From Thermoleophilia bacterium (GTDB taxonomy: Bacteria; Actinomycetota; Thermoleophilia; Gaiellales; JAICJC01): a stretch of 41,065 bases of DNA. The stretch is taken from contig JAICJC010000015.1 of NCBI GenBank assembly GCA_025928655.1, forward strand, positions 1 to 41,065, in the 5' to 3' direction. Of this stretch, positions 617 to 19,097 are shown one piece after another. The position numbers and the translations under genes are program-made. Position 1 is the stretch's first letter. The number at the start of each line of letters is the position of its first letter. Under the pieces are notes generated by a model. It ran no database searches. It saw only the letters and a list, made by a program, of their open reading frames with translations, and was not told where the DNA came from.

Positions 617-624
617 ACGGCGCG

Positions 625-634
625 AGTGTACCCT
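625..634. promoter_or_regulatory. Compact divergent promoter between alcohol dehydrogenase and nucleotidyltransferase
   Basis: Only 31 bp separate the two divergent start codons. The minus strand reads TACACT (625-630), 8 bases before the dehydrogenase ATG. The plus strand reads TACCCT (629-634), 13 bases before the GTG at 648. The two boxes overlap by two bases. No clear -35 elements were seen. Confidence 0.4.
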
Positions 635-647
635 GTCCGCCGACAAC

Positions 648-1397: not shown

Positions 1398-1406
1398 CCG
1401 ACCCCC

Positions 1407-1436
1407 GGGGACAGTCCCCGTATGGGGACTGTCCCC
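1407..1436. repeat. REP-like palindrome, GGGGACWGTCCCC family
   Basis: Two 13-base arms, GGGGACAGTCCCC (1407-1419) and GGGGACTGTCCCC (1424-1436), are exact inverted copies around the 4-base loop GTAT. Each arm is itself palindromic around its central base. It lies between two convergent stop codons (1397 and 1440), so it could act as a bidirectional terminator. A second copy with a different loop lies at 40265-40296. Confidence 0.85.
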
Positions 1437-1439
1437 ACA

Positions 1440-2927: not shown

Positions 2928-2951
2928 TGGATGATCCTCTAACCGCGATCG

Positions 2952-2963
2952 TACAACGTTGCA
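2952..2963. promoter_or_regulatory. Possible operator between the PucR-type gene and the catabolic operon
   Basis: The divergent region contains TACAACGTTGCA, a near-perfect palindrome with the symmetric core CAACGTTG at 2954-2961. Read on the minus strand, TACGAT overlaps its flank and could be the -10 of the regulator. A regulator site here is plausible, but a single copy cannot prove it. Confidence 0.3.
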
Positions 2964-3010
2964 GGGTTCGACCCTTGCGAGGCACCGCTCGATCCGTGAG
3001 ACTCGCGCCG

Positions 3011-3889
3011 ATGGGGGGGTTCACCTGGCCCGGTGATCACCGCGCCGCCCTGGCGCTCACCTTCGACGTCGATGCCGAGTCTGCCATCGTGGCCGTCGAC
3101 CCGAAGTACGCCCGCCGCCTGACGACGATGAGCCACCAGGCCTACGGGCCAAGGGTGGGCGTGCCCCGCATCCTGCGGATGCTGGAGCGAAACGGCGTCA
3201 CCGGCAGCTTCTTCGTCCCGGGCCTGACCGCCGACCGCTACCCCGGCACCGTCGAGGCGATCGTCGCCGCCGGCCACGACCTGGGCCACCACGGGTACTC
3301 GCACGTCCCCTATCACGACCTCTCGGACGACGGCCGGCGGGCGGACGTCGAGCGCGCCCTGGCGAGCCTCGAGCGCATCACGGGCCGCCGGCCCGAGGGG
3401 TGCCGGGCGCCGTGGTGGGAGCTGACCGACTCCACGCCCGCCCTGCTGGCGGAGTACGGCTTCCGGTGGGACTCGAGCATGATGGACGACGACCGTCCGT
3501 ACCTGCTCGACACCGGCCGGGGCATCCTGGCCGAGCTGCCCGTGCACTGGATGCTGGACGACTGGGAGCAGTACGCCTTCCTGCCCGAGCCGAACGTGGG
3601 CTCCGTGATCGAGTCGCCCGCCAAGGTGCTCGACCTGTGGACGGGCGAGCTCGACGCCCTCGCCGCCGAGGGCGGGCTGATGATCCTGACGAGCCACCCC
3701 TTCCTGTCCGGCCGGGCCTCGCGGGTCGCGACCCTGGAGCAGGTCGTCGAGCACGCCCGCGCGGCCGGCGGGATCTGGATCGCGCCGTTGAGCGAGATCG
3801 CCGCACACACGCGGTCGGTCATACCTGACACCGACGCCCGGCCGGTGCCGAGCGTCTACATCGAGGAGGGGATCTATGAGCGCCGCTGA
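3011..3889 (+). CDS. Polysaccharide deacetylase-family hydrolase (PuuE/HpPgdA-like)
   Basis: A 292-residue NodB-fold metal hydrolase. From the ATG at 3011, the catalytic acid motif is TFDVD (D19, D21) and the metal-binding histidines are H94 and H98 in HHGYSH. Further family motifs are GCRAPWW and the late TSHPF. There is no signal peptide, so it acts in the cytosol. That fits the subgroup that hydrolyses small amides or ring ureides (allantoinase PuuE, cyclic imidases) better than secreted chitin or peptidoglycan deacetylases. Downstream are a permease and a ureohydrolase, and upstream a PucR regulator, so a nitrogen-compound substrate is inferred. GTG 2996 is an alternative start; frames open further upstream reach into the regulator's promoter. 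Confidence 0.8.
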   Translation: MGGFTWPGDHRAALALTFDVDAESAIVAVDPKYARRLTTMSHQAYGPRVGVPRILRMLERNGVTGSFFVPGLTADRYPGTVEAIVAAGHDLGHHGYSHVPYHDLSDDGRRADVERALASLERITGRRPEGCRAPWWELTDSTPALLAEYGFRWDSSMMDDDRPYLLDTGRGILAELPVHWMLDDWEQYAFLPEPNVGSVIESPAKVLDLWTGELDALAAEGGLMILTSHPFLSGRASRVATLEQVVEHARAAGGIWIAPLSEIAAHTRSVIPDTDARPVPSVYIEEGIYERR

Positions 3890-5474
3890 GCCGGGCGCGC
3901 CGCGCGCCTTCGAGCGCCAGGCCACCGGCCTCGTCCGCGAGGCCGCCTGGTGGGACGTCCTGATCTACAACGTCAACTTCATCTCGATCGGGTTGATGGC
4001 GGCGTTCCTCTTCAACACCACCATCCCGTTCTACCCGGGCGTCAACGTGTACCTGAACGAGCTGGTCGCGTTCGCCCTCGTGATCCCGCTCTCGCTCGTG
4101 TTCGCGATGTTCGCGGCGGCGATGCCGCGCTCGGGCGGCGACTACGTGTACGTCTCGCGCACGCTGCACCCGGCGCTCGGGATGATGTCGTCCTGGAACA
4201 ACACGGTCTGGTGGTTCATCTACGGCGGCGTCCCGTCGGCGTTCTTCGCCCGCTACGGCCTGGGGCCGTTCCTGCGCACGGTGGGCGACATGTCCGGCTC
4301 CGGGACGCTGAGCGACTGGGGCAACACGCTGGTCGGCAAGACCGGCACCGTGATCGCCGGGACGATCCTGATCGTCGTCCTGTGCGCGATCTTCTCCCGC
4401 TCGCTGCGCCTCTACTTCCGGCTCCAGAACACGCTCTTCGTGCTGGCGATGGGCAGCATCGTGATCTCGATCGTCGTCTTCCTCGCCAAGGGGCACGGCG
4501 ATGTGGTGGCGGCGATCAACTCGACCTTCGGATCGGGCAGCGTCAAGGGCGCGCTCAAGTCCGGCTCGCCGCAGGGTGCGCTCGACGTGCGCAACACGAT
4601 CCTGCCGATGACGTGGCTCTACCTGGAGCTCGTCTTCAACCAGTCCTCGGCCTACATCGGCGGCGAGGTGCGGCGGGCGTCGCGCGTGCAGCTGTGGTCG
4701 ATGCCGGCCGCGGCCGTCGTCGCCATCGGCGTGCTCATGCTGCTCACCTGGTCGGCCCTGCACTCGATCGGGTTCACGCTCTGGAGCGGCCTCGGGAACG
4801 ATTTCGGGGCCAGCCTCGGCCTCTCCTCGACGCCCGTCTACAGCGAGATCGCGGCGGCCGCGAGCGGCTACACCATCGTCGGGATCCTGATCCTGGCCGG
4901 GTTCGTGTTCTGGAGCTACACCTGGCTTCCGGGCCAGATCCTGAACGCGTCGCGCAACCTGGTCGCCTACGCAATTGACGGTGTCATGCCGCGCCAACTG
5001 GCGTACGTGAGCGACGGCACCCACGCGCCGCTTGCCGCCATCTGGACCGTCGGCGCCGGGTCGATCGTGTTCCTCTTCCTCTACGTCTACACGAAGATCT
5101 TCCCGACCCTCACGGGCATCTTCGGGTTCATCCTCGGCTTCTGTCTGGTGTCGATCGCGGCCATCATGTTCCCGTTCCGGCTGCGCGAGGTGTTCGAGTC
5201 CTCGCCGGTGCGGTGGCGGGTCGCGGGCGTCCCGGTGATGAGCATCGTCGGGTTCATCTCGCTCGCCGCCTGCGTCGCCGCGCTCGTGATCTTCTGGAAG
5301 GACCCGTACGCAGGCCTGCGCAACCTGAACGACGGCTCCCGCTACTGGTGGGGCGTCGCCTACAACGTCGGCATCTTCCTGTCGGGCTTCGTCATCTACT
5401 TCGTCGCCCGAGCGCTCAACCGCGCCCGCGGCGTCGACATCAGCAAGCGTTTCCAGGAGATCCCGATTGAGTAG
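3876..5474 (+). CDS. APC-family amino acid/amine permease
   Basis: A 532-residue integral membrane protein of the amino acid-polyamine-organocation superfamily, probably importing an amino acid or amine. About 12 hydrophobic segments are visible. The first begins near residue 28 (DVLIYNVNFISIGLMAAF), and an AAMPRSGGDYVYVSR motif follows TM2, as in APC transporters. It starts at an ATG inside the last codons of the deacetylase gene (14-base overlap) with a strong GAGGAGGGG site, so the two are translationally coupled. Neighbouring ureohydrolase and regulator suggest a guanidino, ureido or polyamine-type substrate; this is inferred. Confidence 0.9.
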   Translation: MSAAEPGAPRAFERQATGLVREAAWWDVLIYNVNFISIGLMAAFLFNTTIPFYPGVNVYLNELVAFALVIPLSLVFAMFAAAMPRSGGDYVYVSRTLHPALGMMSSWNNTVWWFIYGGVPSAFFARYGLGPFLRTVGDMSGSGTLSDWGNTLVGKTGTVIAGTILIVVLCAIFSRSLRLYFRLQNTLFVLAMGSIVISIVVFLAKGHGDVVAAINSTFGSGSVKGALKSGSPQGALDVRNTILPMTWLYLELVFNQSSAYIGGEVRRASRVQLWSMPAAAVVAIGVLMLLTWSALHSIGFTLWSGLGNDFGASLGLSSTPVYSEIAAAASGYTIVGILILAGFVFWSYTWLPGQILNASRNLVAYAIDGVMPRQLAYVSDGTHAPLAAIWTVGAGSIVFLFLYVYTKIFPTLTGIFGFILGFCLVSIAAIMFPFRLREVFESSPVRWRVAGVPVMSIVGFISLAACVAALVIFWKDPYAGLRNLNDGSRYWWGVAYNVGIFLSGFVIYFVARALNRARGVDISKRFQEIPIE

Positions 5475-5544: not shown

Positions 5545-6512
5545 GCGCAGGCCGTTACATGCCTGCGGACGCGTTCCGCAACCCACGCTTCTCGGGCGTG
5601 CGCACGTACATGCGCCTGCCCCACGTGACCGATCTCGAGGACGTCGACGTCGCCGTCCTCGGCGTGCCGTTCGACACCGCCACGAGCTTCCGCTCCGGCG
5701 CCCGCTTCGGCCCCGAGGCGATCCGCTCGGCGTCCGCGCTCCTGCGCCCCTACAACCCCGAGCAGGCGGTGGCCATCTTCGCCCACGTCTCCGCCGTCGA
5801 CGGCGGCGACCTCGCCGTCGCCCCGGGTGACACGGAGGCCACCTACGCCCTGGTGGAGGAGGGGCTCGCGCCGATCGTGGCCGCCGGCGTCTTCCCGGTC
5901 GTGCTCGGCGGCGACCACTCGATCACCCTGGCGGAGCTGCGCGCCCTGTCGCGCCGGCACGGCCCGCTCGCGCTCGTGCACCTCGACGCCCACGGCGACA
6001 CCTGGCACGAGTATTTCGGCCAGCGCTACTTCCACGGGACGACGTTCCGGCGGGCGGCCGAGGAGGGGGTGATCGATCCGTCCCGGTCGGTGCAGGCGGG
6101 CATGCGGGGGTCGCTGTACGGCCCGGAGGACATCACCGGTGCCCGCGACCTCGGCTTCACCGTCCTCTCGACGCGGGAGCTGCGCGAGCTCGGCCCGGTC
6201 GCGTTCGGCGAGCTCGTGCGCCGCACCGCCGGCGGCCGGCCGGCGTTCCTGTCGTTCGACGTCGACTTCTGCGACCCGGCGTTCGCGCCCGGGACGGGCA
6301 CCCCCGAGATCGGCGGCCCGAGCACCTCGGAGGCGCTCGAGTTCGTGCGGGCGCTGCACGGCGTCCCGCTCGCCGGGTGCGACGTGGTCGAGGTGGCGCC
6401 CGCCTACGACTCGCCCGGCCAGCCGACCGCCCTGCTCGGGGCCACGATCGCCTGGGAGGCGATCTCGCTCCACGCCCGCGCGCGGGCCGCGCTCGGTGAG
6501 GCGACCGTGTGA
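5541..6512 (+). CDS. Ureohydrolase (agmatinase/guanidinobutyrase/guanidine hydrolase family)
   Basis: A 323-residue binuclear Mn (or Ni)-dependent hydrolase that splits a guanidino group to urea plus an amine; cytosolic. The family signatures are complete: GGDHS (H126), LDAHGD (D149, H151, D153) and SFDVDFCDP followed by APGTGTPEIGG (D240, D242). Length is typical. It starts at a GTG with GGGAGG upstream and overlaps the next gene by four bases (GTGA). The family includes agmatinase, guanidinobutyrase, proclavaminate amidinohydrolase and guanidine hydrolase; the exact substrate cannot be read from the sequence. A DUF1989 gene about 4 kb away belongs to a family with guanidine-pathway members, which is suggestive only. 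Confidence 0.9.
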   Translation: MSAGRYMPADAFRNPRFSGVRTYMRLPHVTDLEDVDVAVLGVPFDTATSFRSGARFGPEAIRSASALLRPYNPEQAVAIFAHVSAVDGGDLAVAPGDTEATYALVEEGLAPIVAAGVFPVVLGGDHSITLAELRALSRRHGPLALVHLDAHGDTWHEYFGQRYFHGTTFRRAAEEGVIDPSRSVQAGMRGSLYGPEDITGARDLGFTVLSTRELRELGPVAFGELVRRTAGGRPAFLSFDVDFCDPAFAPGTGTPEIGGPSTSEALEFVRALHGVPLAGCDVVEVAPAYDSPGQPTALLGATIAWEAISLHARARAALGEATV

Positions 6513-7447
6513 GGCTGTACTACGCCGGCGACGTGCACGGCTCGGAGAAGTGCTGGCGCAAGTTCCTCGGCGCCGCCCGCTTCTACGAGGTCGACACGCT
6601 CATCATGGGCGGCGACATCACCGGCAAGCTGATGGTGCCAATCGTCGGGCGCGGCGACGGCCGCCACGAGGCGACCGTGCTCGGCCGGCTCGAGACGGTC
6701 ACGGGCGGCGGCCTCGAGGAGCTCGAGAAGCGTATCCGCTTCAACGGCTTCTATCCCTACCGGTGCGACCGGGCCGAGTACGACCGCCTGAGCGCCGACC
6801 GCGACTACCGCGACCGCGTGTTCACCGACCTCATGGTGGCCGAGGTGCGCCGGTGGATCGAGCTCGCCGAGGAGCGGCTGGCCGGCACCGGCATCCGCTG
6901 CTTCGTCATGCCCGGGAACGACGACGAGTTCGCGATCGACGCCGCCCTCGAGTCGGCCACGGTCGTGAACCCGGACAACCGGGTCGTGCGCGTCGACGCA
7001 GAGACGCAGATGCTGTCCTGCTCGTGGACCAACCCGACGCCCTGGGACAGCCCCCGCGAGGAGCCCGAGGACGAGCTGCTCGAGCGTCTGCATGGGCTGG
7101 CCGCCCAGCTCGAGCCGGGCGTCAACACCATCTTCAACCTGCACTGCCCCCCCCACGACACCAGCCTCGACCGCGCCCCGGAGCTCACGGACGACCTGAA
7201 GGTGGTGCTCGACGGGGGCGAGCCGCGCATCGTGCCCGTGGGCTCGAAGGCCGTCCGGGCGCTGATCGAGGAGCTCCAGCCCGTGCTCTCGCTGCACGGG
7301 CACATCCATGAGTCGAAGGCGATCGCGAAGATCGGCGAGACCACGTGCGTGAACCCCGGGAGCGCCTACTCGGAGGGCGTCATCGACGGGGCGGTGGTCG
7401 AGCTGCGCGGCCGCAGGATCAGATCCTGCCAGCTCGTGACCGGATAA
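6509..7447 (+). CDS. Metallophosphoesterase (calcineurin-like)
   Basis: A 312-residue cytosolic phosphoesterase. All five metal-site blocks are present: GDVHG (D8, H10), GGD (D36), GND (N137, D138), NLHCPP (H212) and GHIHES (H265, H267). A long insertion between blocks 2 and 3 (about 45-130) is rich in charged residues. It begins with GTG overlapping the TGA of the ureohydrolase gene, so it is the last gene of the operon and translationally coupled. Whether it acts on a phosphodiester metabolite, a nucleotide or a protein is unknown; its role in a nitrogen-compound operon is unexplained. Confidence 0.85.
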   Translation: MRLYYAGDVHGSEKCWRKFLGAARFYEVDTLIMGGDITGKLMVPIVGRGDGRHEATVLGRLETVTGGGLEELEKRIRFNGFYPYRCDRAEYDRLSADRDYRDRVFTDLMVAEVRRWIELAEERLAGTGIRCFVMPGNDDEFAIDAALESATVVNPDNRVVRVDAETQMLSCSWTNPTPWDSPREEPEDELLERLHGLAAQLEPGVNTIFNLHCPPHDTSLDRAPELTDDLKVVLDGGEPRIVPVGSKAVRALIEELQPVLSLHGHIHESKAIAKIGETTCVNPGSAYSEGVIDGAVVELRGRRIRSCQLVTG

Positions 7448-7456
7448 GGGCTGCCG

Positions 7457-8053
7457 TCAGGCGACCGCGCCGGTGAGGCGCGCGTCCTGAGCGCGTGCGA
7501 GCGCGAGGACGCGCGCGAGTGGTACGTGGCGGCCGAAGACGGCGACGAGGCCGAGCGCGGTGCCGTGCTGCCAGCCGTAGGCGTAGGCGGGCAGGCCGTC
7601 GAGGGTGCCGGCGAGGATGAGCCGGGGCGTTCCGGGCGCGCCCGGCGGGGCGGCGACGGCGTGGGCGTGCAGCTGCCGGGTGATGTGAGCGACGGCCTGG
7701 GCGTCGCCGATGACGATCCTGGCCGCGCGGGCGTCGCGGTAGAGCAAGACCTGGCTGACGATCCCGACCTGACCGGGACGGGCGAACCCGGCGGAGTACC
7801 CGGCCACGTACGAGTGGACGTCGGCGTCCTGCGCGCGGGCGGACTCGTTCCGGAGCTCGTGGGCGAGCGTGATCGGCTTCGTCGCGCTCGCCTGGGGGAC
7901 ATAGCCCGGCCCCAGGTCGGCCGCGTGCAGCACGAGCGTCCTCGGGCGCGGCAGCTGCCGCGCGCCCGTCGCGGCGGGCCCGCCGGCGCCGCTGCCGCAG
8001 CCGGCGAGGAGCGCGGCGAGGGCGAGCAGGGCGAGAGGTGCGAGGCGCGTCAC
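7457..8053 (-). CDS. Predicted lipoprotein of unknown function
   Basis: A 198-residue exported protein. The N-terminus is a classical lipoprotein signal: a short basic start, a hydrophobic stretch of Leu and Ala, then the lipobox LLAGC with Cys at about residue 19. The following GSGAGGPAATG is a flexible linker. The mature domain includes VLHAADLGPGY, as in several actinobacterial lipoproteins of unknown role. It converges with the metallophosphoesterase gene nine bases away. GTG start at 8053 with a GGGGAG stretch close upstream. No enzymatic motif was recognised. Confidence 0.75.
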   Translation of the reverse strand: MTRLAPLALLALAALLAGCGSGAGGPAATGARQLPRPRTLVLHAADLGPGYVPQASATKPITLAHELRNESARAQDADVHSYVAGYSAGFARPGQVGIVSQVLLYRDARAARIVIGDAQAVAHITRQLHAHAVAAPPGAPGTPRLILAGTLDGLPAYAYGWQHGTALGLVAVFGRHVPLARVLALARAQDARLTGAVA

Positions 8054-8113
8054 CCGCTCCCCATCGGCCTCCGCCGCAGCGGCCTTGAATAGCCGGTGCG
8101 GGGCACCGGCGGT

Positions 8114-8821
8114 TCACGCCGCGTCGTGGAAGATGAGCCCGAGCGTCGTGCGCTCGCCGCCGAGCACCGTCGCGACGCCGTGGCGCATCGCCGCGCGGTA
8201 GAACCCGCGCGAGCCCTGGACGGGGCGGTTGCGGGTGGGGAAGACGAGGAAGGCGCCCGGGTCGAGGTCGATGACGTGCGCGCGGGACTGCTGCCGCGGC
8301 CGGCCCTCCACGAGCACGAACTGGCCGCCGGCGAAGTCGCCGATCGAGCTCAGGAGCGTGACCGCCTGCAGCGGGAAGGCGACGTCGCCGTAGATGTCCT
8401 GGTGCAAGGCGTTGTGGCCGCCCTCGCCGTAGCGCAGGATGAGCGGGGTCGGCCGTTCCTGGCCGGCGCGGTGGCAGCGGTGCAGGAATGCGTCGAGGTC
8501 GGCGGGCAGGTCGGCCGGCTCGCCGAGCCGCTCCGCCCAGCGGTTGGCGGTCTCCGCCAGCGGGGCGTAGAGCGCGCGGCGGGCGGCGGCGATCGGGTCG
8601 GGCAGCGGGTGGTCGAAGTATCGATAGGTGCCCTCCCCGAAGCGGTGCCGGCGCATCTCGATGGTCGAGCGGAATCGCCCGTCGTGGAAGCTCCCGGCCA
8701 GCCCGGCGCGCTCCGGCGCGGTCAGGATCGGTGGTGTCTGCACGAAGCCGTCCTCGTCCAGCCGGGCCTGGAGGGCCGGCCAGTCGAGGGCGGCGATGCG
8801 GTCTGCGATGGTTTGGGTCAT
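8114..8821 (-). CDS. 2OG-Fe(II) oxygenase-type protein
   Basis: A 235-residue protein resembling 2-oxoglutarate/Fe(II)-dependent dioxygenases of the prolyl-hydroxylase-like superfamily. The iron facial triad is visible as H-x-D in ALHQDIYGD and a distal histidine in FYRAAMRHGV. The later arginine (GGERTTLGLIFHDAA) would bind the 2OG carboxylate. An LVEGRPRQQSRAHV segment lies between them. The open frame runs further upstream into the metG coding region, so I start at the ATG at 8821, which gives MTQTIADRIAAL. The substrate is unknown. Confidence 0.8.
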   Translation of the reverse strand: MTQTIADRIAALDWPALQARLDEDGFVQTPPILTAPERAGLAGSFHDGRFRSTIEMRRHRFGEGTYRYFDHPLPDPIAAARRALYAPLAETANRWAERLGEPADLPADLDAFLHRCHRAGQERPTPLILRYGEGGHNALHQDIYGDVAFPLQAVTLLSSIGDFAGGQFVLVEGRPRQQSRAHVIDLDPGAFLVFPTRNRPVQGSRGFYRAAMRHGVATVLGGERTTLGLIFHDAA

Positions 8822-8862
8822 GGTGGATGAACGCGCCGGGGCGGCCGCGCGTGAGATGCCCT

Positions 8863-10341
8863 TTACGCCGCCTTCGGGAAGAGCCGCCGCGCCGCCGCCG
8901 GGTCGCCCGACTCGAGCGCCGCCACGATGCGCTCCGAGCCTCCGGGCAGGAACGGCGCGATCTCGGCGGCGATCGCGGCGCACGCGGCGAGCGCGTCGGC
9001 GAGCACCGCCGCCCGCGCCTCGCCCTCGAGCTGCCACGGCCGCCGGGCCGACACGAACCGGTTCGCCGCCTCGACCGAACCCCAGACCGCATCGGCGGCG
9101 GCGCGCAGGTCGAACCGCCCGAGCGCCGTGTCGATTGACGCCGGCACAGCGTCGATTGCGGCCGCGAGGCCGGGGTCGGCAATCCTGTCAATTGGCACTC
9201 GCGGCGGATGCCAATTGGATGGGGTCGCGCCCGCCCGCGCCGCCAGCGACACCGTCCGGCTGACCAGGTTCCCGAGCCCGTCGGCAAGCTCGTTCGCCCG
9301 CCGCACCAGACCCTCCTCGCGGAAGTCGGCGTCGCCGGAGCGGGGCACGTCGCGGACGACCCACCAGCGCAGCGCGTCGGTTCCGTACCGCTCCGCGAGG
9401 GCGGCCGGGTCGACGGCGTTGCCGAGCGACTTCGAGAGCTTGCGCCCGCGGACCGTCACGTAGTCGTGCACGAGCACCCGGGTCGGCAGCGGCTCGCCGG
9501 CCGAGCGCAGGATCGCCGGCCAGTAGAGCGCGTGGAACCGGGTGATGCCCTTGCCGACGAGGTGGATGCGCTCGCCGCCGTCCGCCCACCAGCGGGCGTA
9601 GTCACCGCCGCCGTTCCCGTAGCCGAGCGCGGTGACGTAGTTCGCGAGCGCGTCGAACCAGACGTAGATCACCTGGCCCGGGTCGCCCGGCACCGGGATC
9701 CCCCAGCCGCCCGCGCGCTCGCGCGGGCGCGAGACGCTGAGGTCGGCGAGGCCGCTTCGCAGCACCGCCAGCACCTCGTTGCGACGGTGCTCCGGCTCGA
9801 TCGCCAGGGCGCCCGACTCGATCGCGTCCGCGAGCGGCCCGGCATGGCGGGAGAGGCGGAAGAACCAGTTGCGCTCCTCGACCGGCTCCGGCGGCGTCCC
9901 GTGCTCCGGGCAGACGCCGTCGCACAGGTCGTCGTCGTCGAGGAACGCCTCGCAACCGCCGCAGTAGCGGCCCGTATACGCGCGCAGCTCGAGGTCGCCG
10001 GCGTCCGCGCAGGCCCGCCACAGCCGCTCCACCCCCGGCCGGTGGCGGGGGTCGGCCGACGTGCGGATGAAGTCGTCGTAGGAGAGCGCCAGCGGATCGC
10101 GCAGCCGCTCGAAGAGGTCGGAGCGGGCGGCCACGAACTCCGCCGCGGCGAGGCCTGCCGCGGCCGCGGCCTGCACGTTCTTGAGCGCGTTCTCGTCGGT
10201 CCCGCTCAGGTAGCGCACGTCGTCGCCGCGCAGCCGCCGGTGGCGGGCGAGCACGTCGGTCTGCACGAACTCGAGCGCGTGCCCGAGATGGGGGTCGCCG
10301 TTCACGTAGGCGATCGCGTTGGTGATGTAGAAGCGGCTCAT
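8863..10341 (-). CDS. metG: Methionine-tRNA ligase
   Basis: Class I aminoacyl-tRNA synthetase that charges tRNA-Met; cytosolic. A 492-residue short form. HLGH (residues 18-21) is the HIGH motif and KLSKS (about 305) the KMSKS motif. A zinc knuckle with CGGC and CDGVC sits near residues 128-145, and an all-helical anticodon-binding region containing RRPWQL follows. It lacks the C-terminal EMAP/Trbp111 dimerisation domain of longer forms. The ATG at 10341 has a strong AAGGGAGAT site (10345-10353). A structured leader with a possible Met-containing uORF lies upstream, see 10356-10503. This may be one of two MetRS copies in the genome; that cannot be judged here. Confidence 0.95.
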   Translation of the reverse strand: MSRFYITNAIAYVNGDPHLGHALEFVQTDVLARHRRLRGDDVRYLSGTDENALKNVQAAAAAGLAAAEFVAARSDLFERLRDPLALSYDDFIRTSADPRHRPGVERLWRACADAGDLELRAYTGRYCGGCEAFLDDDDLCDGVCPEHGTPPEPVEERNWFFRLSRHAGPLADAIESGALAIEPEHRRNEVLAVLRSGLADLSVSRPRERAGGWGIPVPGDPGQVIYVWFDALANYVTALGYGNGGGDYARWWADGGERIHLVGKGITRFHALYWPAILRSAGEPLPTRVLVHDYVTVRGRKLSKSLGNAVDPAALAERYGTDALRWWVVRDVPRSGDADFREEGLVRRANELADGLGNLVSRTVSLAARAGATPSNWHPPRVPIDRIADPGLAAAIDAVPASIDTALGRFDLRAAADAVWGSVEAANRFVSARRPWQLEGEARAAVLADALAACAAIAAEIAPFLPGGSERIVAALESGDPAAARRLFPKAA

Positions 10342-10355
10342 CGGATCTCCCTTCG

Positions 10356-10462
10356 CGGCCCCGCGGGACCGACGGATCGCCGATGAGCGGCGTCTTGCGG
10401 CCCCATCGGGGGCCGGTCGTCGTGGCTACGCGCGCACGCGGACGGGCCCCTGCGGCGGGGCC
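10356..10462 (-). promoter_or_regulatory. Candidate ribosome-controlled attenuator in the metG leader
   Basis: Reading along the mRNA: hairpin 1, GGCCCC/GGGGCC (10445-10462), lies inside the uORF directly after its tandem Met codons. Hairpin 2, CGGCCCC/GGGGCCG with loop CGAT, is at 10398-10415. A smaller CGCCG/CGGCG hairpin is at 10378-10392. Hairpin 3, CGGUCCC/GGGGCCG with one G-U pair, is at 10356-10371 just before the Shine-Dalgarno sequence. All GGCCCC and GGGGCC arms can pair with one another in alternative ways, as in classical attenuators. There is no U-run, so control would be translational or Rho-type. Function is inferred from the layout. Confidence 0.45.
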
Positions 10463-10491
10463 ATCATCCGGAAGTGACTCGTGCGCGTCAT
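10426..10491 (-). CDS. Putative metG leader peptide (21 codons)
   Basis: A 21-codon ORF from ATG 10491 to TAG 10426-10428. The peptide begins MTRTSHFRMMAPP and ends PVRVRA. Codons 9 and 10 are both ATG and sit immediately before the first strong hairpin of the leader. It has no Shine-Dalgarno sequence; instead TATCCT (10498-10503) lies 6 bases upstream, which would put the transcription start at the A of the ATG (leaderless translation). Ribosome slowing at the Met codons when charged tRNA-Met is scarce would free the downstream arms to re-pair. This is inference, with no independent support in the window. Confidence 0.45.
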   Translation of the reverse strand: MTRTSHFRMMAPPQGPVRVRA

Positions 10492-10497
10492 GCCCGG

Positions 10498-10526
10498 AGG
10501 ATAGCCGCGCCCCGGCCCGGAATCAC
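10498..10526 (-). promoter_or_regulatory. Putative promoter of metG and its leader
   Basis: TATCCT (10498-10503, minus strand) fits TANNNT. With 17-bp spacing the -35 region would be GTGATT at 10521-10526, which keeps only the TGA core. The start site would fall on the leader-peptide ATG. Confidence 0.4.
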
Positions 10527-10555
10527 GCCCCATGGCGAGGTGGGAGACGAGCCCG

Positions 10556-11158
10556 CTAGCCCCGGCTGATCTCGAGCTCGATCTCGGTCGGGTCGCCCGA
10601 GTTGATCGGCACGAGATCCTGGGGGCAGGCGGAGACGGCCACGATGATGTCCATCTCCGCCCGCAGCGTGACCGAGTCGCCCGCGGCGGTCGGCGCGGGC
10701 TCCCAGCCGATCGCGCCCCCTTCGCCCACCGGAATGTTCATGAACAGGTTGATCGGCTGCGGGATCACGATGCCCTCGTGCCCGAGCGCGGCCATCGCCT
10801 TCTGCAGATTCTCCTCGCACGAGGCGTGCCAGCCCTCGGCGCCGAGGAGGGCGTAACGGGCCGGGTCGCAGGCGGCGCAGAGCATGTCGTGGATGCCGGG
10901 CGAGGTGTCCTCCTCGAGCGTCAGGATCGGGCGGCGGTGGTTCGTCACGAACTGCTCGCCCACCGCCGGGAAGAGCTTCCCCACCCACACGCGCGTGTGC
11001 TGCGCGCTTGCGTACTCGCTCACGTCGTCGGCGCAGAACGCGAACACGTCGGCCACCTGGCCGCCGCGCGGATCGATCACCCGGATGCGGTCGCCGCGCC
11101 GAAGCTCGACCGCGCGGCCCTCGCGGGCAGGGACGGTGACGGTGGCGGGGTCGGGCAC
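10556..11158 (-). CDS. DUF1989 / urea carboxylase-associated family protein
   Basis: A 200-residue cytosolic protein of the DUF1989 family. It has the typical N-terminal RIRVIDPRGGQVADVFAF segment, an HTRVW motif, Cys-bearing metal-site-like segments (MLCAACDP, HASCEENL) and the family signature PINLFMNIPV. Members occur beside urea carboxylases, and some are known as the carboxyguanidine deiminase subunits CgdA/CgdB; others are uncharacterised. No urea or guanidine carboxylase gene is in the window, so its reaction is open. GTG start at 11158 without an obvious ribosome-binding site. It precedes metG, but metG has its own predicted promoter. Confidence 0.8.
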   Translation of the reverse strand: MPDPATVTVPAREGRAVELRRGDRIRVIDPRGGQVADVFAFCADDVSEYASAQHTRVWVGKLFPAVGEQFVTNHRRPILTLEEDTSPGIHDMLCAACDPARYALLGAEGWHASCEENLQKAMAALGHEGIVIPQPINLFMNIPVGEGGAIGWEPAPTAAGDSVTLRAEMDIIVAVSACPQDLVPINSGDPTEIELEISRG

Positions 11159-11179
11159 GTGGCGTGGGGAGCGGTCGGT

Positions 11180-11358
11180 CCAGAAATTCGCCGTCGTGGC
11201 TGGCCTTTCGTCCCCCGGCCGAAAGAGCTTTCGAGTTGCCTCTACGACTCCTCCGTCCGGCTTCGACCTACTCGGCTGCCCGCGACGGCGCAGTGATCAA
11301 GCTACGGCACCCGGGGTCGGTCTGCAACCCGAAAGTTCACGCAGTTTGCGAGGTTCGG
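11180..11358. repeat. Tandem repeat copy 1 (179 bp, period 207)
   Basis: First of two directly repeated copies; the second is exactly 207 bases downstream with no insertions or deletions. It contains CGAAAGAGCTTTCG (a hairpin), an overlapping alternative hairpin CTTTCG...CGAAAG, and ends with CCGAA...TTCGG around CGCAGTTTGCG. No gene was recognised in it. Confidence 0.9.
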
Positions 11359-11386
11359 CGGCCCGGCCGGCCGGGATTTCCCCGGA

Positions 11387-11565
11387 CCAGAGATTCGCCG
11401 TCGTGGCTGGCCTTTCGTCCCCCGGCCGAAAGAGCTTTCGAGTCACCTCTACAGCTCCTCCGTCCGGCTTCGACCTACTCGGCTGCCCTCGACGGCGCAG
11501 GAGTGAAGGTACGGCACCGGGGGACGGCTTGCAACCCGAAAGTTCACGCACTTTGCGAGGTTCGG
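11387..11565. repeat. Tandem repeat copy 2
   Basis: Second copy, differing from copy 1 at about 16 of 179 positions by eye. The hairpin-forming segments are fully kept, and changes cluster between them. It ends 21 bases before the TAGAGT -10 box of the M55 peptidase gene, so it lies upstream of, not inside, that transcript if the gene is leaderless. Together with copy 1 it fills the 440-base gap between the DUF1989 gene and the peptidase gene. Confidence 0.9.
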
Positions 11566-11586
11566 GGCACACCACTTCGCATCATC

Positions 11587-11592
11587 TAGAGT
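11587..11592 (+). promoter_or_regulatory. -10 box, M55 peptidase operon
   Basis: TAGAGT lies 8 bases before ATG 11601, predicting a leaderless mRNA. No ribosome-binding site is present. Confidence 0.5.
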
Positions 11593-11600
11593 TGCCGCCC

Positions 11601-12428
11601 ATGCGCGTCTTCATCGTCAGCGACATGGAGGGCGTCGCCGGCATAACGAACTGGAGCGGGGTCGGCGCCGGTGATCCGCTGTACGAGGAGGGCCGCACCC
11701 TCTACACCGAGGAGATCAACGCGGCCGTCCGCGGCGCGCGGGCCGGAGGGGCGACCGAGGTCGTCGTCATGGACTGCCACGGCGCCGGGGGCGACCTGTC
11801 GTTCAACTCGCTTCGGCCCGACCTGCTGGACGACGGCTGCGAGTTCGTCGTCCAGCGCGAGTGGACCGAGTACACCGGCGCGCTCGAGGACGGCTGCGAC
11901 GCGGCCCTCTTCATCGGCATGCACGCGATGGCGGGCACCGGCGACGGGGGGATGAGCCATACCGTCTCGGGCACCCAGTGGCACGGCCTCTCCTTCAACG
12001 GCCGCGAGGTGGGCGAGACCGGGATCAACGCCGCGCTGTGCGGGGCGTGGGGCTGCCCGGTGCTGCTCGTGACCGGGGATCAGGCCGCCTGCCGTGAGGG
12101 CCGGGAGCTGCTCGGCGACGGACTCCAGACGGTGCAGGTGAAGACGTCGCTCGGCCGGTTCAGCGCCCGCCACAAGACGCCCAACGTGGCCCGCGCGATG
12201 ATCGAGGAGGGCGCGAAGCGCGCGCTCGCCGACGTCAGGGCGGTCGCGCCCTACGACCCGGGCAGGCCGTGCGAGATCCGGGTCGAGTTCGCGAGCCCCG
12301 ACCACACCGAGCAGTTTCGCCACCACCCCGCGGTCGAGATCACCGACCCGCGCACGATCGTGAGCGCGGGCCCCGACTGGTGGACGGCCTGGCGCCAGTT
12401 CTACTTCTCGTTCCGGTGGCCGGACTGA
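11601..12428 (+). CDS. M55-family D-aminopeptidase (DppA-like)
   Basis: A 275-residue zinc aminopeptidase of the DppA family, which releases N-terminal D-amino acids from peptides, for example in cell-wall peptide recycling. The binuclear zinc site is complete: SDMEG (D8, E10), DCHG (H60), GMHA (H108) and GETGINA (E139). The C-terminal region has the usual RVEFASPDH segment. An open frame continues upstream through the tandem repeats, but the ATG at 11601 matches the family N-terminus (MRVFIVSDMEG) and has a -10 box 8 bases away. Its stop overlaps the next ATG by one base. Confidence 0.9.
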   Translation: MRVFIVSDMEGVAGITNWSGVGAGDPLYEEGRTLYTEEINAAVRGARAGGATEVVVMDCHGAGGDLSFNSLRPDLLDDGCEFVVQREWTEYTGALEDGCDAALFIGMHAMAGTGDGGMSHTVSGTQWHGLSFNGREVGETGINAALCGAWGCPVLLVTGDQAACREGRELLGDGLQTVQVKTSLGRFSARHKTPNVARAMIEEGAKRALADVRAVAPYDPGRPCEIRVEFASPDHTEQFRHHPAVEITDPRTIVSAGPDWWTAWRQFYFSFRWPD

Positions 12429-13816
12429 TGGCGCGCGAGTACCCGACCATCCTCGACCTGATCGGCGGCACGCCGCTCGTGCGGCTGGAGCGGGTGGCGC
12501 GCGACGTCGAGCCGACCGTGCTCGCGAAGGTCGAGTGGATGAACCCCGGCGGCTCGGTGAAGGACCGGATCGGCCTGCGCATGATCGAGGCGGCGGAGCG
12601 CGAGGGCCTGCTGCGGCCCGGCGGGACGATCGTCGAGCCGACCTCCGGCAACACCGGGGTGGGCCTGGCGATGGTCGCCGCCCGCCGCGGCTACCGGATG
12701 ATCTTCGTCATGCCCGACAAGATGAGCCAGGAGAAGATCTCGCTCCTGCGCGCCTTCGGGGCCGAGGTGATCGTGTGCCCGACGGCCGTCGACGCCGATT
12801 CGCCGGAGAGCTACTACTCGGTGTCCGACCGGCTGGCCGAGGAGATCCCGGGCGCCTTCAAGCCCAACCAGTACGCGAATGCCGCCAACCCCAAGGCCCA
12901 CTACGACACCACCGGCCCGGAGATCTGGGAGGGGACGGGCGGCGAGATCGACGCGCTCGTGATCGCCGTCGGCACCGGCGGCACCATCTCCGGCTCGGCC
13001 CGGTACCTGAAGGAGCGCAAGCCGGATCTGCTCGTCGTCGGCGCCGACCCGGAGGGCTCGATCTACTCCTCCGAGACGATGCACCCGTACCTGGTCGAGG
13101 GCATCGGCGAGGACTTCTGGCCGCAGACGTTCGACCCGACGCTGGTCGATGAGTACGTGACCGTGTCCGACCGCGACTCGTTCCTGACGGCCCGCCGCAT
13201 GGCCCGCGAGGAGGGCATGCTCGTCGGCGGCTCGGCCGGGACGGCGATCCACGCGGCGCTCGAGGTGGCCGGCCGCTTCGGCCGCGACGCCACCATCGTC
13301 ACGCTGATCCCCGACGGCGGCCGCGCCTACCTGAGCAAGTTCCTGAACGACAACTACATGCTCGAGTACGGGTTCCTCGAGCGCTCGACGCCGGTGCCCA
13401 CGGTCGAGCAGGTGGCCCAGGCCAAGCACGGCGCCGAGCTGCCGGAGCTGGTCACGATCGAGGCCCACCACAAGGTGGGCGAGGCGATCGAGCTCATGCA
13501 GCGCTACTCGATCTCGCAGCTCCCGGTGGTGCGGACACAGCCGCCCGAGTCGCTGGCGGACGTGGTCGGGTCGCTGCAGGACCGCAGCCTGCTCGACCGC
13601 GTCTTCAAGAACCCGGACGCGCTCCAGGACAACGTCGCCGAGGCGATGGGGCCACCGCTCGCCGCCGTCGACGCCGCCGACTCGCTCGACCGCGTCTTCG
13701 CCGACCTCACCGCCGGCAGCCCCGCCGTCGTCGTGGTGCGTGACGGCCGGCCGGCGGGGATGCTGAGCCGCTCCGACCTGCTCGAGTACCTGGCCCACCG
13801 GCGAAACGGCGCGTGA
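12428..13816 (+). CDS. cbs: Cystathionine beta-synthase
   Basis: PLP enzyme condensing serine (or O-acetylserine) with homocysteine to cystathionine; 462 residues. The catalytic domain spans about 1-325: PLP lysine K45 in NPGGSVKDR, the PTSGNTG loop near residue 71, and GTGGTISG for the phosphate. Two C-terminal CBS (Bateman) domains span about 335-462 (EAHHKVGEAIELMQRYSISQ; AMGPPLAAVDAADSLDRVF). The heme-binding N-terminus of animal CBS is absent. It overlaps the preceding gene by one base and the next by four. With the gamma-lyase/synthase gene at 14944 it makes a reverse-transsulfuration pair. Confidence 0.92.
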   Translation: MAREYPTILDLIGGTPLVRLERVARDVEPTVLAKVEWMNPGGSVKDRIGLRMIEAAEREGLLRPGGTIVEPTSGNTGVGLAMVAARRGYRMIFVMPDKMSQEKISLLRAFGAEVIVCPTAVDADSPESYYSVSDRLAEEIPGAFKPNQYANAANPKAHYDTTGPEIWEGTGGEIDALVIAVGTGGTISGSARYLKERKPDLLVVGADPEGSIYSSETMHPYLVEGIGEDFWPQTFDPTLVDEYVTVSDRDSFLTARRMAREEGMLVGGSAGTAIHAALEVAGRFGRDATIVTLIPDGGRAYLSKFLNDNYMLEYGFLERSTPVPTVEQVAQAKHGAELPELVTIEAHHKVGEAIELMQRYSISQLPVVRTQPPESLADVVGSLQDRSLLDRVFKNPDALQDNVAEAMGPPLAAVDAADSLDRVFADLTAGSPAVVVVRDGRPAGMLSRSDLLEYLAHRRNGA

Positions 13817-14934
13817 CGCCGCTCTCCGCGGCGTCGCTGCGCCGGCACGTCGTCGCCGCCCAGGGCTACTCGACCCGGCCCCGGCGCGGCACCGCCGCCG
13901 ACGTCGAGGCCACGGTCGCGCGCCTGGGGTGCGTCCAGCTCGACTCGATCTCGACCGTCGCCCGCAGCCACCGGCTGACGCTGCTCTCGCGGATCGGCAC
14001 CTACCCGACGGGCACCGTGTCGAAGCTCCTGCGCAGCGGGCGCCTGTTCGAGTACTGGGCCCATGAGGCATGCCTGCTGCCGATCGAGCTCTGGCCGCTC
14101 ATGCGCAGCTTCATGCGCGACCGCACCCACCCCTGGTGGGGCCCGATCATCGAGCGCGAGCCGGCGCTGGCCGATCACGTCATGGGCGCGATCCGGGAGC
14201 GCGGCCCGCTCGGCTCCCGCGACTTCGAGGGGGAGCGCTCGGGCGGCATGTGGAACCTGAAGCCGGCCAAGCGGATGCTGGAGGCGCTGTGGAGCGCGGG
14301 TGACCTCGTGATCGCCGGCCGCCAGGGCTTCCAGCGGATGTACGACCTGCCCGAGCGGGTGGTCCCCGACGACGTCCTCGGCGCGCCGGTCCCCGGCGAC
14401 GACGAGGTGTTGCGGCGGCTGATCGTGCTCGCCGTGCGCGGCCGCGGCGCGCTGACCGAGGCGGGCGTCGTCGAGCACTGGCGGCTGCGCGGCGGGACGG
14501 CCCGGATCCGCCCGCACGTCGCCGACGTCGTCGCCGCGGGCGAGCTGCGCCGGGCCGAGGTGGCCGACGGCGGGGCGCCGGCCCTCATCGCCGCCGACGC
14601 CGATCCCGGGGCCGCCCGCCCGGCGGGCGCCGTCCTGCTCTCCCCGTTCGACAACCTGCTCTGGGACCGCCCCTTCGCCGAGCGGGTGCTCGGCTTCAGG
14701 CACCTGATCGAGGTCTACAAGCCGGCGCCGGAGCGGCGCTACGGCTACTACGTGCTGCCGCTCCTGTCCGGCGACCGGATCGTCGGCCGCGCCGACGTCA
14801 AGGCCGACCGGGCGGCGAGGACGCTCACGGCGAAGGCCTGGCATCCGGAGGGCCGCTTCCGCAGCACGGCGCCGCTCGAGCGGGCGCTGGCCCGGCTGGC
14901 CCGCCAGCTCGGCCTCCGGCCGGTGCACGGGTAG
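13813..14934 (+). CDS. AlkZ/YcaQ-like DNA glycosylase (HTH_42 family)
   Basis: A 373-residue winged-helix protein of the YcaQ/AlkZ/AlkX family, DNA glycosylases for bulky N-alkyl lesions and interstrand cross-links. The catalytic QxD motif is present as VQLDSISTVARSH (Q42, D44). Other family marks are EYWAHEACLLP, SPFDNLLWDR and the C-terminal YYVLPLLSGDRIVGRADVK. GTG start overlapping the CBS stop (GTGA), so it is translationally coupled. Its place between the two transsulfuration genes is odd; a link between cysteine or thiol supply and alkylation repair is conceivable but only inferred. Confidence 0.85.
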   Translation: MTPLSAASLRRHVVAAQGYSTRPRRGTAADVEATVARLGCVQLDSISTVARSHRLTLLSRIGTYPTGTVSKLLRSGRLFEYWAHEACLLPIELWPLMRSFMRDRTHPWWGPIIEREPALADHVMGAIRERGPLGSRDFEGERSGGMWNLKPAKRMLEALWSAGDLVIAGRQGFQRMYDLPERVVPDDVLGAPVPGDDEVLRRLIVLAVRGRGALTEAGVVEHWRLRGGTARIRPHVADVVAAGELRRAEVADGGAPALIAADADPGAARPAGAVLLSPFDNLLWDRPFAERVLGFRHLIEVYKPAPERRYGYYVLPLLSGDRIVGRADVKADRAARTLTAKAWHPEGRFRSTAPLERALARLARQLGLRPVHG

Positions 14935-14939
14935 ATTCC
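14934..14939 (+). promoter_or_regulatory. Internal -10 box before the cystathionine gamma-lyase gene
   Basis: TAGATT begins at the last base region of the glycosylase stop codon and lies about 6 bases before ATG 14944. It predicts an internal leaderless transcript in addition to read-through from the operon. Confidence 0.4.
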
Positions 14940-14943
14940 CGCC

Positions 14944-16071
14944 ATGGACTTCGAGACCCGCGCCATCCACGCCGGCCAGGAGCCCGATCCGCGCACGGGC
15001 GCCGTGGCCGTCCCGATCTATCAGACCTCGACCTACGCCCAGCGGGCCGTCGGCGAGTACGAGTACGACTACTCGCGCACGCGCAACCCCACCCGCGACG
15101 CGCTCGAGGAGTGCCTGGCGTCACTCGAGGGCGCCGCCCACGGCCTCGCCTTCGCGTCCGGCATGGCGGCCGCGACGACGGTGATGCACCTGGTCGACCC
15201 GTCCCGGCGCGTGGTCTCGGTGAACGACGTCTACGGCGGCACCTACCGGCTGTTCTCGAAGGTGTACGAGCCGAAGGGCTACCGCTTCTCCTACCTGTCG
15301 GCCGAGCAGTGCAACACCGAGCTCGCCGACCACCTCGGCGACGACACGGCGCTCGTGTGGCTGGAGACGCCGACGAACCCGCTCCTCAACGTGGTCGACC
15401 TGCGCGCCGCCGCCGACGCCGCGCACGCGGCCAGCGCCCTCGTCGTCGTGGACAACACCTTCGCGTCGCCCTACCTGCAGCGGCCGATCGAACACGGGGC
15501 CGACATCGTCGTCCACTCGACGACGAAGTACCTGGGCGGCCACTCCGATCTCATCGGCGGCTTCGCAGCCACCGGCGACGCCGGCCTCGCCGAGCGGCTG
15601 GCGTTCCTGCAGAACTCGCTCGGCGGCGTGCCGGGGCCGCTGGACGCGTGGCTCGTGCTGCGGGGGCTGAAGACGCTCGGCGTGCGCATGCGGGCGCACT
15701 GCGAGAACGCGGCCGCGATCGTGGAGTTCCTGCAGGGCCACGACCGGGTCGAGCGGGTGCTCTACCCGGGCATCGGCGAGCACCCGGGGCACGACATCGC
15801 CCGCCGCCAGATGGACGGCTTCGGGGGCATGGTGTCGTTCCTGGCCGCCTCCGAGGACGAGGCGGTGGCGCTCGCCGCCCGCACGAAGATCTGGACGCTC
15901 GCCGAGAGCCTCGGGGGAGTGGAGAGCCTGATCGAGCACCCCGGCCGCATGACCCACGCCTCGACGGCGGACTCCCCCTTCGCGACGCCCGGCACGCTCG
16001 TGCGGCTCTCGGTCGGGATCGAGTCGGCCGCCGACCTGATCGCCGACCTCGACCAGGCCCTGCGCGGCTAG
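14944..16071 (+). CDS. Cystathionine gamma-lyase / gamma-synthase family PLP enzyme
   Basis: A 375-residue Cys/Met-metabolism PLP enzyme. It has the family opening (TRAIHAGQEPD), YSRTRNPTRDALE, the SGMAA phosphate loop near 72-76, ETPTNP, and the PLP lysine K195 in HSTTKYLGGHSD. The late SLGGVESLIEHP motif is typical of MetB/CGL. Paired with cystathionine beta-synthase, cystathionine gamma-lyase (making cysteine) is the most likely role, though gamma-synthase cannot be excluded by motif. The stop runs directly into a two-level palindrome (16071-16109) shared with the convergent GNAT gene. Confidence 0.9.
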   Translation: MDFETRAIHAGQEPDPRTGAVAVPIYQTSTYAQRAVGEYEYDYSRTRNPTRDALEECLASLEGAAHGLAFASGMAAATTVMHLVDPSRRVVSVNDVYGGTYRLFSKVYEPKGYRFSYLSAEQCNTELADHLGDDTALVWLETPTNPLLNVVDLRAAADAAHAASALVVVDNTFASPYLQRPIEHGADIVVHSTTKYLGGHSDLIGGFAATGDAGLAERLAFLQNSLGGVPGPLDAWLVLRGLKTLGVRMRAHCENAAAIVEFLQGHDRVERVLYPGIGEHPGHDIARRQMDGFGGMVSFLAASEDEAVALAARTKIWTLAESLGGVESLIEHPGRMTHASTADSPFATPGTLVRLSVGIESAADLIADLDQALRG

Positions 16072-17091: not shown

Positions 17092-18573
17092 ATGCCGCCC
17101 GTGGCCGACATGCCCGCACCGGGCTTCACGCTGCCGAGCACGACCGGCGCGCCGGTCGGCCTTTCCGAGCTGCTGGCGGGCGGCCCCGCGGTCGTCATGT
17201 TCGTGACCGACGACTGCCCCACCTGCGAGCTCACGCTGCGCCGGCTCGGCGCCGTCGGCGCCGACGTGACCGTCGTGTGCGAGGCGCCCCCGGCGGCCGC
17301 CTCCCGGCTTGCCGCCCGCACCGGCTTCGGCGGCCGGATGCTGTCCGAGCCGGCCCCGTACGACACGTCGCGCGCCTACGGGCTCGACGCGGTGCCGACG
17401 ACGATCGCGATCGCCCCGGGCGGGGTGGTGGCCGGGACGGTCGTCGGCTGGGACGCCGCAGCGCTCTCGGCACTGGTCGGCCTCGACCTCGGCCCCGAAC
17501 CGCCTGCGCGCAAGCCGGGCTGCGCCGCCAAGTCGACCTACGACGCCGCCCAGCTCGCCGCCGACGGTGGGACGGGCGACGACGACCCGGAGGCGATGTT
17601 CGAGCTCGGCTGGACCGACGGCCTGCCGACGATCGCGCCGACACCCGAGCGCGTGGCCGCGATGCTCGCCGGCCGTGATCCCGCCGCGTCGCTGGGCCCG
17701 GTCGCGCCGGGCATGGGCGAGGCGACGCTCGAGCGGGTGGCCGCATGCGCCGTCCTGGCCGGCTGCCGGCCCGGGCACTTCCCGATCGTCGAGGCGGCCG
17801 TGCGCGCGATGCTCGAGCCCGCCTTCAACCTGCACGGCCAGGCGGTCACGACCCAGCCGGCCGGCCAGATCGCCGTGGTGAACGGGCCGATCCGGCGGTC
17901 GGCCGGCCTGAACGCGGGCATGGGTGCGCTCGGCCCCGGGGCGCGGGCGAACGCCACCATCGGCCGGGCGCTGCGCCTCGTCGTCGCGCTCACCGGCGAG
18001 GGCATGCCGGGCCGGCTCGACCGCTCGACGCTCGGGCAGCCGGGCAAGGTCGGCACCTGCCTGGCCGAGGACGAGGAGCGCAGCCCGTGGCCGCCGCTTC
18101 ACACCGAGCGCGGGCTCGACGCGGATCAGTCCGCCGTCACGCTGCTCGCGGGCGACGCCCCGCTCTCGATCTCTGAGCACCGCAGCAGGACGCCCGAGGA
18201 GCTGGCCGCGGCGCTCGGCTGGGCGGCCGCGACGCTGTGGGCCCCCAACTGGTGGCCGATCGGTGCCGCGACGCTCTTCGTCATCTGCCCCGAGCACGCC
18301 GACACGCTCGCGGTGGGCGGGTGGAGCAAGGACGACGTGCGCCGCGCGATCTGGGAGGCGGTGCAGCGGCCGGCCGGCGAGCTGCGCCATGGCGAGTTCA
18401 CGGCCCGGGTCGCGAACGCGCCCGACGCCGAGCTCGTGCCCAAGTGGGACGCGCCCGGCGACATCCTGCTCGTCGTCGCGGGCGGCGAGGCGGGCCGCTT
18501 CTCCGCCGTCTTCGGCCCGTGCGTCGGCATGGACTGGATCCCCATCACCCAGGAGGTGCGATGCGATACGTGA
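17092..18573 (+). CDS. Thioredoxin-like protein with a large UGSC-associated C-terminal domain
   Basis: A 493-residue protein. Residues about 8-140 look like a peroxiredoxin/thioredoxin-fold domain (PAPGFTLPSTTG; CxxC in DDCPTCE, C42 and C45; cis-Pro region AVPTTIAI). A long C-terminal part (about 160-490) follows, with GWTDGLPTIAPTPERVAAML, a Gly-rich NGPIRRSAGLNAGMGALGPG segment and KVGTCLAEDEE. I do not recognise an enzyme in it, though similar sequences occur beside UGSC proteins as far as I recall. There is no signal peptide. Its end overlaps the selenoprotein start by 13 bases, so the two products probably work together, perhaps with the CxxC domain as reductant. The function is not established. 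Confidence 0.7.
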   Translation: MPPVADMPAPGFTLPSTTGAPVGLSELLAGGPAVVMFVTDDCPTCELTLRRLGAVGADVTVVCEAPPAAASRLAARTGFGGRMLSEPAPYDTSRAYGLDAVPTTIAIAPGGVVAGTVVGWDAAALSALVGLDLGPEPPARKPGCAAKSTYDAAQLAADGGTGDDDPEAMFELGWTDGLPTIAPTPERVAAMLAGRDPAASLGPVAPGMGEATLERVAACAVLAGCRPGHFPIVEAAVRAMLEPAFNLHGQAVTTQPAGQIAVVNGPIRRSAGLNAGMGALGPGARANATIGRALRLVVALTGEGMPGRLDRSTLGQPGKVGTCLAEDEERSPWPPLHTERGLDADQSAVTLLAGDAPLSISEHRSRTPEELAAALGWAAATLWAPNWWPIGAATLFVICPEHADTLAVGGWSKDDVRRAIWEAVQRPAGELRHGEFTARVANAPDAELVPKWDAPGDILLVVAGGEAGRFSAVFGPCVGMDWIPITQEVRCDT

Positions 18574-19097
18574 GCCCCTACGACCCCGGCGCCCGCACGC
18601 CGGTCACGCCCGCGCCGCGGCCCGACGCGCTCGCCGGGCGCACCGTCGCCCTGCTCGACATTTCGAAGAACCGGGGCGCCGAGTTCCTCGACCGGGTCGA
18701 GCGGAACCTCCGCGACCGCGGCGCCGCGGTCGAGCGGTTCGCCAAGCCGCTCTTCTCCCGCCCTGCGGCCGGCGAGCTGATCGAGCGGATCGCCGCCCGC
18801 GCCGACGTCGCCGTCGAGGGCCTCGCCGATTGAGGCTCGTGCGTGTCGTGCAGTGTGCACGACCTGGTGCGGCTGGAGCGGCTCGGCGTGGCCACCGCGG
18901 GCGTGGGCACGGAGCCGTTCGCCGACGAGGCGCTCGAGCAGGCGGCGCTCCTCGGCATGCCCGGATACCGGATGGTGTGGGTGCCACATCCGGTGCAGCT
19001 CCTGACCGCGGAGGAGCTCGACGCGCGCGCGGACGCCGCCATGGCGCCCATCCTCGCGCGGTTGCTGGCGAATAGTTCGACTGCTAACCTTTCGTGA
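18561..19097 (+). CDS. UGSC-family selenoprotein (in-frame UGA = Sec91)
   Basis: A 178-residue protein read through TGA at 18831-18833. The frame before the TGA (ending VAVEGLAD) and after it (GSCVSCSVHDLVRLERLG) together give the signature U-G-S-C, with Sec at residue 91, Cys94 and Cys97 (UxxCxxC). Both halves lie in the same frame with no other stop. A hairpin suited to a bacterial SECIS starts 12 bases after the TGA. UGSC proteins were described from marine metagenomes as predicted redox selenoproteins; their reaction is unknown. ATG 18561 has AGGAGG four bases upstream. A plain reading would call two short genes or a pseudogene. Confidence 0.8.
18831..18863 (+). promoter_or_regulatory. 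Bacterial SECIS candidate
   Basis: TGA (18831-18833) is followed by the perfect 8-bp stem GTCGTGCA (18845-18852) and TGCACGAC (18856-18863) closing a GTG loop. The loop G is 22 bases after the start of the UGA, within the 16-37 base range usual for bacterial SECIS elements. The stem is in the coding sequence, as in all bacterial SECIS. SelB recognition is inferred. Confidence 0.65.

Follow-up and report, generated by a model that had tools for sequence, protein, structure and literature searches.

A UGSC-family selenoprotein gene in a Thermoleophilia genome, its constant partner and its probable remote kinship with the Sec-bearing part of GrdB/PrdB

The window analyzed here, a stretch of 41,065 nucleotides from a Thermoleophilia bacterium, contains a further member of the published predicted selenoprotein family UGSC (Table 1), and comparison with its homologues indicates that the UGA inside this gene is almost certainly decoded as selenocysteine. 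Our overall reading, which we hold to be reasonably probable, is that the Sec-decoded UGSC protein would be the catalytic subunit, and the protein encoded upstream the other subunit, of a thiol-driven reductase in which UGSC is a Rossmann-like relative of GrdB/PrdB.

Table 1. Positions in the window of the UGSC gene, its partner and associated elements.
Feature	Position	Strand	Description and evidence
Partner gene	17092..18573	+	493 aa; N-terminal thioredoxin-fold/redoxin domain (CPTC) followed by a ~320-aa domain; Pfam Redoxin, Foldseek
Conserved ~320-aa partner domain	17581..18528	+	Adjoins UGSC in 39/39 loci
Ribosome-binding site AGGAGG of the UGSC gene	18551..18556	+	Within the 3' end of the partner gene, before the UGSC ATG; read from the sequence
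UGSC selenoprotein gene	18561..19097	+	178 aa, predicted Sec at residue 91; translation, PF24696, NF041046, alignment
In-frame TGA, almost certainly read as selenocysteine	18831..18833	+	Homologue column TGA 35/39, Cys codon 4/39
Bacterial SECIS-type hairpin	18845..18863	+	8-bp stem, GUG loop at +20 after the UGA; conservation and covariation

The preliminary description had joined the codons on either side of the TGA into one continuous 178-residue protein bearing a U-G-S-C signature, and translation of 18561-19097 bears this out. With the internal TGA as U, the frame runs to a terminal TGA at codon 179, and residues 91-94 read UGSC in the context ...GLADUGSCVSCSVHD..., i.e., the [U/C]-G-S-C motif of the family. 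The read-through protein exceeds the curated cut-offs of both Pfam UGSC (PF24696; 155.8 bits, cut-off 25) and NF041046 (137.5 bits, cut-off 125), and as both matches span the TGA, reading across it amounts to more than chance. The longer UxxCxxC pattern claimed earlier holds for this protein, which does have Cys97, but not for the family, in which the alignment shows only U/C91 and C94 to be conserved. That UGSC is a predicted selenoprotein family of uncharacterized function was likewise correct and already on record: the 2008 GOS survey described it as a major selenoprotein family of aquatic metagenomes (PMC2398784), and a 2026 review still lists it among families with largely uncharacterized biological functions (PMC13188914). 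The first 13 bases of the gene (18561-18573) overlap the upstream partner gene.

It is very probable that UGSC and this partner are functionally paired. UGSC loci were taken from relatives as well as from a sampling of the phylum Actinomycetota, giving 39 homologues that were aligned, and in all 39 loci the ~320-residue partner domain lies adjacent to UGSC, mostly upstream and sometimes downstream. UGSC scored over the cut-off in 27 of 396 genomes of the phylum, each of which also has the partner (27/27), and two genomes among the 396 have the partner without UGSC (i.e., UGSC is present in 27 of 29 partner genomes). Natural fusion also speaks for the pairing: a protein of genome G195, described below, contains both domains, and a UGSC/Unknown_1 fusion was reported in the GOS survey (PMC2398784), whose Unknown_1 may be the same domain as our partner. 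The N-terminal domain of the window's partner matches Pfam Redoxin and, by Foldseek, ResA/TlpA-like structures; a thioredoxin-fold domain with CxxC or CxxS occupies this position on 20 of 38 partners (window copy included) and is absent from the other 18. For the partner core, neither Pfam nor NCBIfam yielded a family and no solved structure matched, PF09338 (GrdE/PrdA) did not match the partner domain, and sequence searches of the PDB with the UGSC and partner profiles gave nothing significant. At one locus (L161, genome G241), two proteins at 183-2277 (-) and 222-2067 (+) carry two tandem partner domains each, with no UGSC detectable nearby.

Pairing of this kind could also arise if the partner domain were the enzyme and UGSC a dedicated redox regulator or reductase that reactivates the partner's invariant cysteines instead of attacking a substrate. 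The alignment of the partner core offers suitable residues, C225 (MAGC) being invariant and C323 nearly so, and both the strict pairing with UGSC and the tandem partner domains of G241 would be consistent with such a division of labor. Against it, the partner is hardly ever seen apart from UGSC, and a relationship to GrdB/PrdB favors a Sec that acts on a small molecule; we consider this division of labor unlikely.

The predicted structure of UGSC (pLDDT 93.8) has five strands alternating with helices and places Sec where the helix following strand 3 begins. Foldseek searches with this model returned generic Rossmann/flavodoxin-type matches, the best with a TM of about 0.5 and none of them a close solved structure; no thioredoxin was among the best 50 matches, and the order of strands and helices in the model is not that of the thioredoxin fold. 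The model thus points to a Rossmann-like alpha/beta fold, contrary to the thioredoxin-like fold suggested in 2008 (PMC2398784).

As the UGSC motif together with an E..GIPT...HP pattern resembled GrdB/PrdB, we gathered the PF07355 proteins of the phylum for comparison; all 27 for which a read-through was obtained have U at the motif. When the UGSC profile was aligned by hhalign with that of the PF07355 set, the probability was 95.2% (E 2.6e-8, counted as one comparison) and the Sec columns fell in register, and unrelated controls made from neighboring-gene profiles reached at most 1.8%. Two further frames in the control list (99.9 and 100%) proved to be the UGSC gene and do not count toward this maximum. 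An ordinary profile scan with PF07355 found no match in the 39 UGSC members up to an E of 5, which makes UGSC a relative of that family and not a member of it. Given this and the lack of a close structure in Foldseek, the link to GrdB/PrdB rests on the profile-profile comparison, over ~70 columns. We regard it as likely from these sequence profiles that UGSC belongs to the GrdB/PrdB superfamily, as a remote relative of its Sec-bearing part. Our literature search, which stopped short of subscription papers and InterPro, found no paper that ties UGSC to GrdB/PrdB or names the partner. GrdB/PrdB-type PF07355 proteins with an in-frame TGA, at UGTG or UPxC, are themselves common in Actinomycetota (L121-L150), and gene callers would truncate them at Sec.

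The GOS survey had assumed a thioredoxin-like thiol-disulphide oxidoreductase, which would act on protein disulphides or peroxides. The UxxC motif and the thioredoxin-fold domain often borne by the partner are what speak for this assumption, but a confident model of five alternating beta-alpha units, Rossmann/flavodoxin-like Foldseek matches and a GrdB/PrdB profile match in register make it quite improbable for UGSC itself.

For the reading of the TGA, the residue-91 column of the alignment is the most direct evidence. The preliminary description had proposed that homologues should align Sec or Cys here, and so they do in all 39 (TGA in 35, a Cys codon in 4, no other state), the only exception being a very distant fusion protein with Met; two more Cys-form UGSC genes were found in the same order besides the 39 aligned. 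Across the genomes compared, 30 of the 34 with a TGA-containing UGSC gene have selA vs. one of the six without such a gene (Fisher p 0.001), and of the four TGA-UGSC genomes that lack SelA three are 81-86% complete and one 94%. Compared with the copy of congener G002, whose UGSC protein is 89% identical, the codons 3' of the TGA comprise 11 synonymous differences, 5 non-synonymous differences and 62 identities (5' of the TGA: 22, 13 and 55, respectively); as the differences after the TGA are mostly synonymous, the downstream part appears to be maintained as protein. The fusion protein (L162 in genome G195, 2474-4025) joins a UGSC-like to a partner domain in a single chain, has Met in place of Sec/Cys (GDMGTSSAT) and comes from a genome without SelA; it represents a Sec-less, Cys-less branch of the UGSC family. 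A search of IMG/VR viral contigs found no UGSC.

The second line of evidence is a hairpin, GUCGUGCA-GUG-UGCACGAC, in which 18845-18852 pair with 18856-18863 around a loop at 18853-18855. The perfect 8-bp stem with a GTG loop, 12 bases after the TGA, is directly visible in the sequence as had been described, and it has the arrangement looked for in a bacterial selenoprotein gene, with a hairpin just 3' of the UGA and a G in the apical loop. In 22 of the 35 Sec forms the longest stem has at least 8 pairs and carries its loop at +18 to +20. AGT encodes the loop Ser in 32 of the 35, compared with 80 of the 940 Ser codons of the same genes, and pairing in the stem stands at 95%, three pairs showing compensatory changes, a level reached by no or few shuffles; since these stem, loop-codon and covariation tests count related sequences as independent, their p-values are too small and overstate the case, though the direction is clear. 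In the Cys forms the loop codon is TCG, TGT (Cys) or AGC and the canonical hairpin is absent; two recent Cys forms from the same order have AGC at the loop Ser codon. Folding energy carried no such signal: the hairpin region has an ordinary value (z -0.89), and local energy under synonymous-codon randomization gave a mean z of -0.36 for the 35 Sec forms and -0.48 for the 4 Cys forms. The case for the hairpin is made by its conservation, its covariation and the choice of loop codon, global folding energy having failed as evidence. An alternative, uninterrupted 10-pair stem with its loop at +14 also exists in the window, and the energy model prefers the 8-bp stem.

The host assembly is a draft (82% complete, 193 contigs), and a check for selenocysteine machinery, as the preliminary description had advised, succeeded in part. 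Specifically, selD is full (381 bits) and selA is present (440 bits) but breaks off at model position 341, where the contig ends, whereas selB and tRNA-Sec were not found in this 82% complete draft. The best selB-like match in the genome is, judged from its sequence, an IF-2-like protein, and the best tRNA-Sec-like match is tRNA-Ser. Both missing components occur in a genome of the same genus (G001), which has adjacent selA and selB genes and a tRNA-Sec with a TCA anticodon, and selA and selB are also adjacent in G002; as SelB directly follows SelA in these two genomes, it would lie past the contig end in the host assembly. The host presumably has the complete machinery. Four related genomes (G020, G017, G011, and G014) have SelD genes with an in-frame TGA (Sec-SelD), which the SelD gene of the host genome lacks. 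That the TGA is instead a true stop or a sequencing error, so that the locus would hold either a 90-residue truncated protein followed by a pseudogene tail or a pair of distinct genes, would suit the missing selB and tRNA-Sec and an internal GTG that could start an 84-aa ORF at 18843, but can hardly be right when TGA is kept in 35 homologues of many families with Cys in the rest, when the region 3' of it is under purifying selection, and when the hairpin is conserved and covarying.

Genes beyond the partner vary widely and are not conserved across clades, so that they indicate no substrate. Of the relatives checked, G002 alone shares those of the window, MarR (downstream) and an ABC transporter, and they give no substrate clue. 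Neighbors in other clades include CoA-transferase III, acyl-CoA dehydrogenase, TRAP transporters, dehydrogenases and, once, a thioredoxin-reductase-like protein; these neighborhoods point weakly to organic-acid metabolism. The most informative operon context that we saw is L087, where 6108-10845 encodes, all in one direction, UGSC, the partner, a 274-aa protein, a downstream thioredoxin-reductase-like flavoprotein and CoA-transferase III. Just upstream of the locus, the window holds a transsulphuration cluster at 12269-16071 (cystathionine beta-synthase, an AlkZ-like protein and cystathionine gamma-synthase/lyase, one after another). A 514-aa ORF at 10884-12425 has an M55 D-aminopeptidase domain in its C-terminal half.

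In the mechanism that we propose, the UGSC product would be the catalytic subunit of a two-component enzyme, in complex with the upstream-encoded protein. The selenolate of U91 would attack a substrate held together with the partner domain, the resulting Se adduct would be resolved by Cys94 through formation of a selenenyl-sulphide, and re-reduction would fall to the partner's fused thioredoxin-fold domain or to free thioredoxin, for a net thiol-dependent reductive cleavage in organic-acid metabolism. We lean slightly toward thioredoxin as the source of reducing power for UGSC, whereas cleavage of a carbon-heteroatom bond by this system is possible but somewhat doubtful. More broadly, and tentatively, UGSC and its partner might form an unrecognized class of thiol-driven selenoenzyme—a slimmed-down distant cousin of GrdB/PrdB in which the pyruvoyl subunit GrdE/PrdA has been swapped for a different partner fold—for the reductive cleavage of an organic substrate by free-living bacteria that in many cases are probably aerobic. 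The partner, the predicted fold and the active-site relationship to GrdB/PrdB turn a "function unknown" into a testable two-subunit system with a predicted type of reaction, and the resemblance of the UGSC active site to those of glycine and proline reductases suggests which reaction to test. For the specialist, the interest lies in the partner and in the GrdB/PrdB link, both of which were absent from the earlier reading of the locus.

Set beside the published UGSC family (PF24696, NF041046), the window copy is alike in its UxxC motif, in a family whose members mostly have Sec and occasionally Cys, and shows no difference in kind, being here from an actinobacterium. The N-terminal domain of the partner, with its CPTC motif, resembles ResA/TlpA-type reductants in its Redoxin and ResA structure matches; unlike these, it is fused to an unnamed domain, and about half of the loci lack it. 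GrdB and PrdB (PF07355; glycine/betaine/sarcosine and D-proline reductase), which cleave C-N bonds using Sec and dithiols (PMC10298544), share with UGSC a Sec that falls at the corresponding point of a homologous stretch, the UxxC/UxxxxxC motif, the E..GIPT and HP/P.P motifs and, if UGSC does form the complex that we propose, work within a multi-protein complex. Unlike them, UGSC is shorter, has no PF07355 match and is accompanied by an unnamed partner domain instead of GrdE/PrdA, with no pyruvoyl proprotein detected. FarB, a GrdB homologue proposed to cleave C-F bonds in monofluoroacetate dehalorespiration (PMC10838667), forms with FarE a two-gene unit built around a Sec protein of the GrdB superfamily, to which UGSC and its partner can be likened by description. 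FarB and FarE are, unlike our pair, direct homologues of GrdB and GrdE, and they would provide an example of how reactions in this superfamily have widened beyond C-N bonds.
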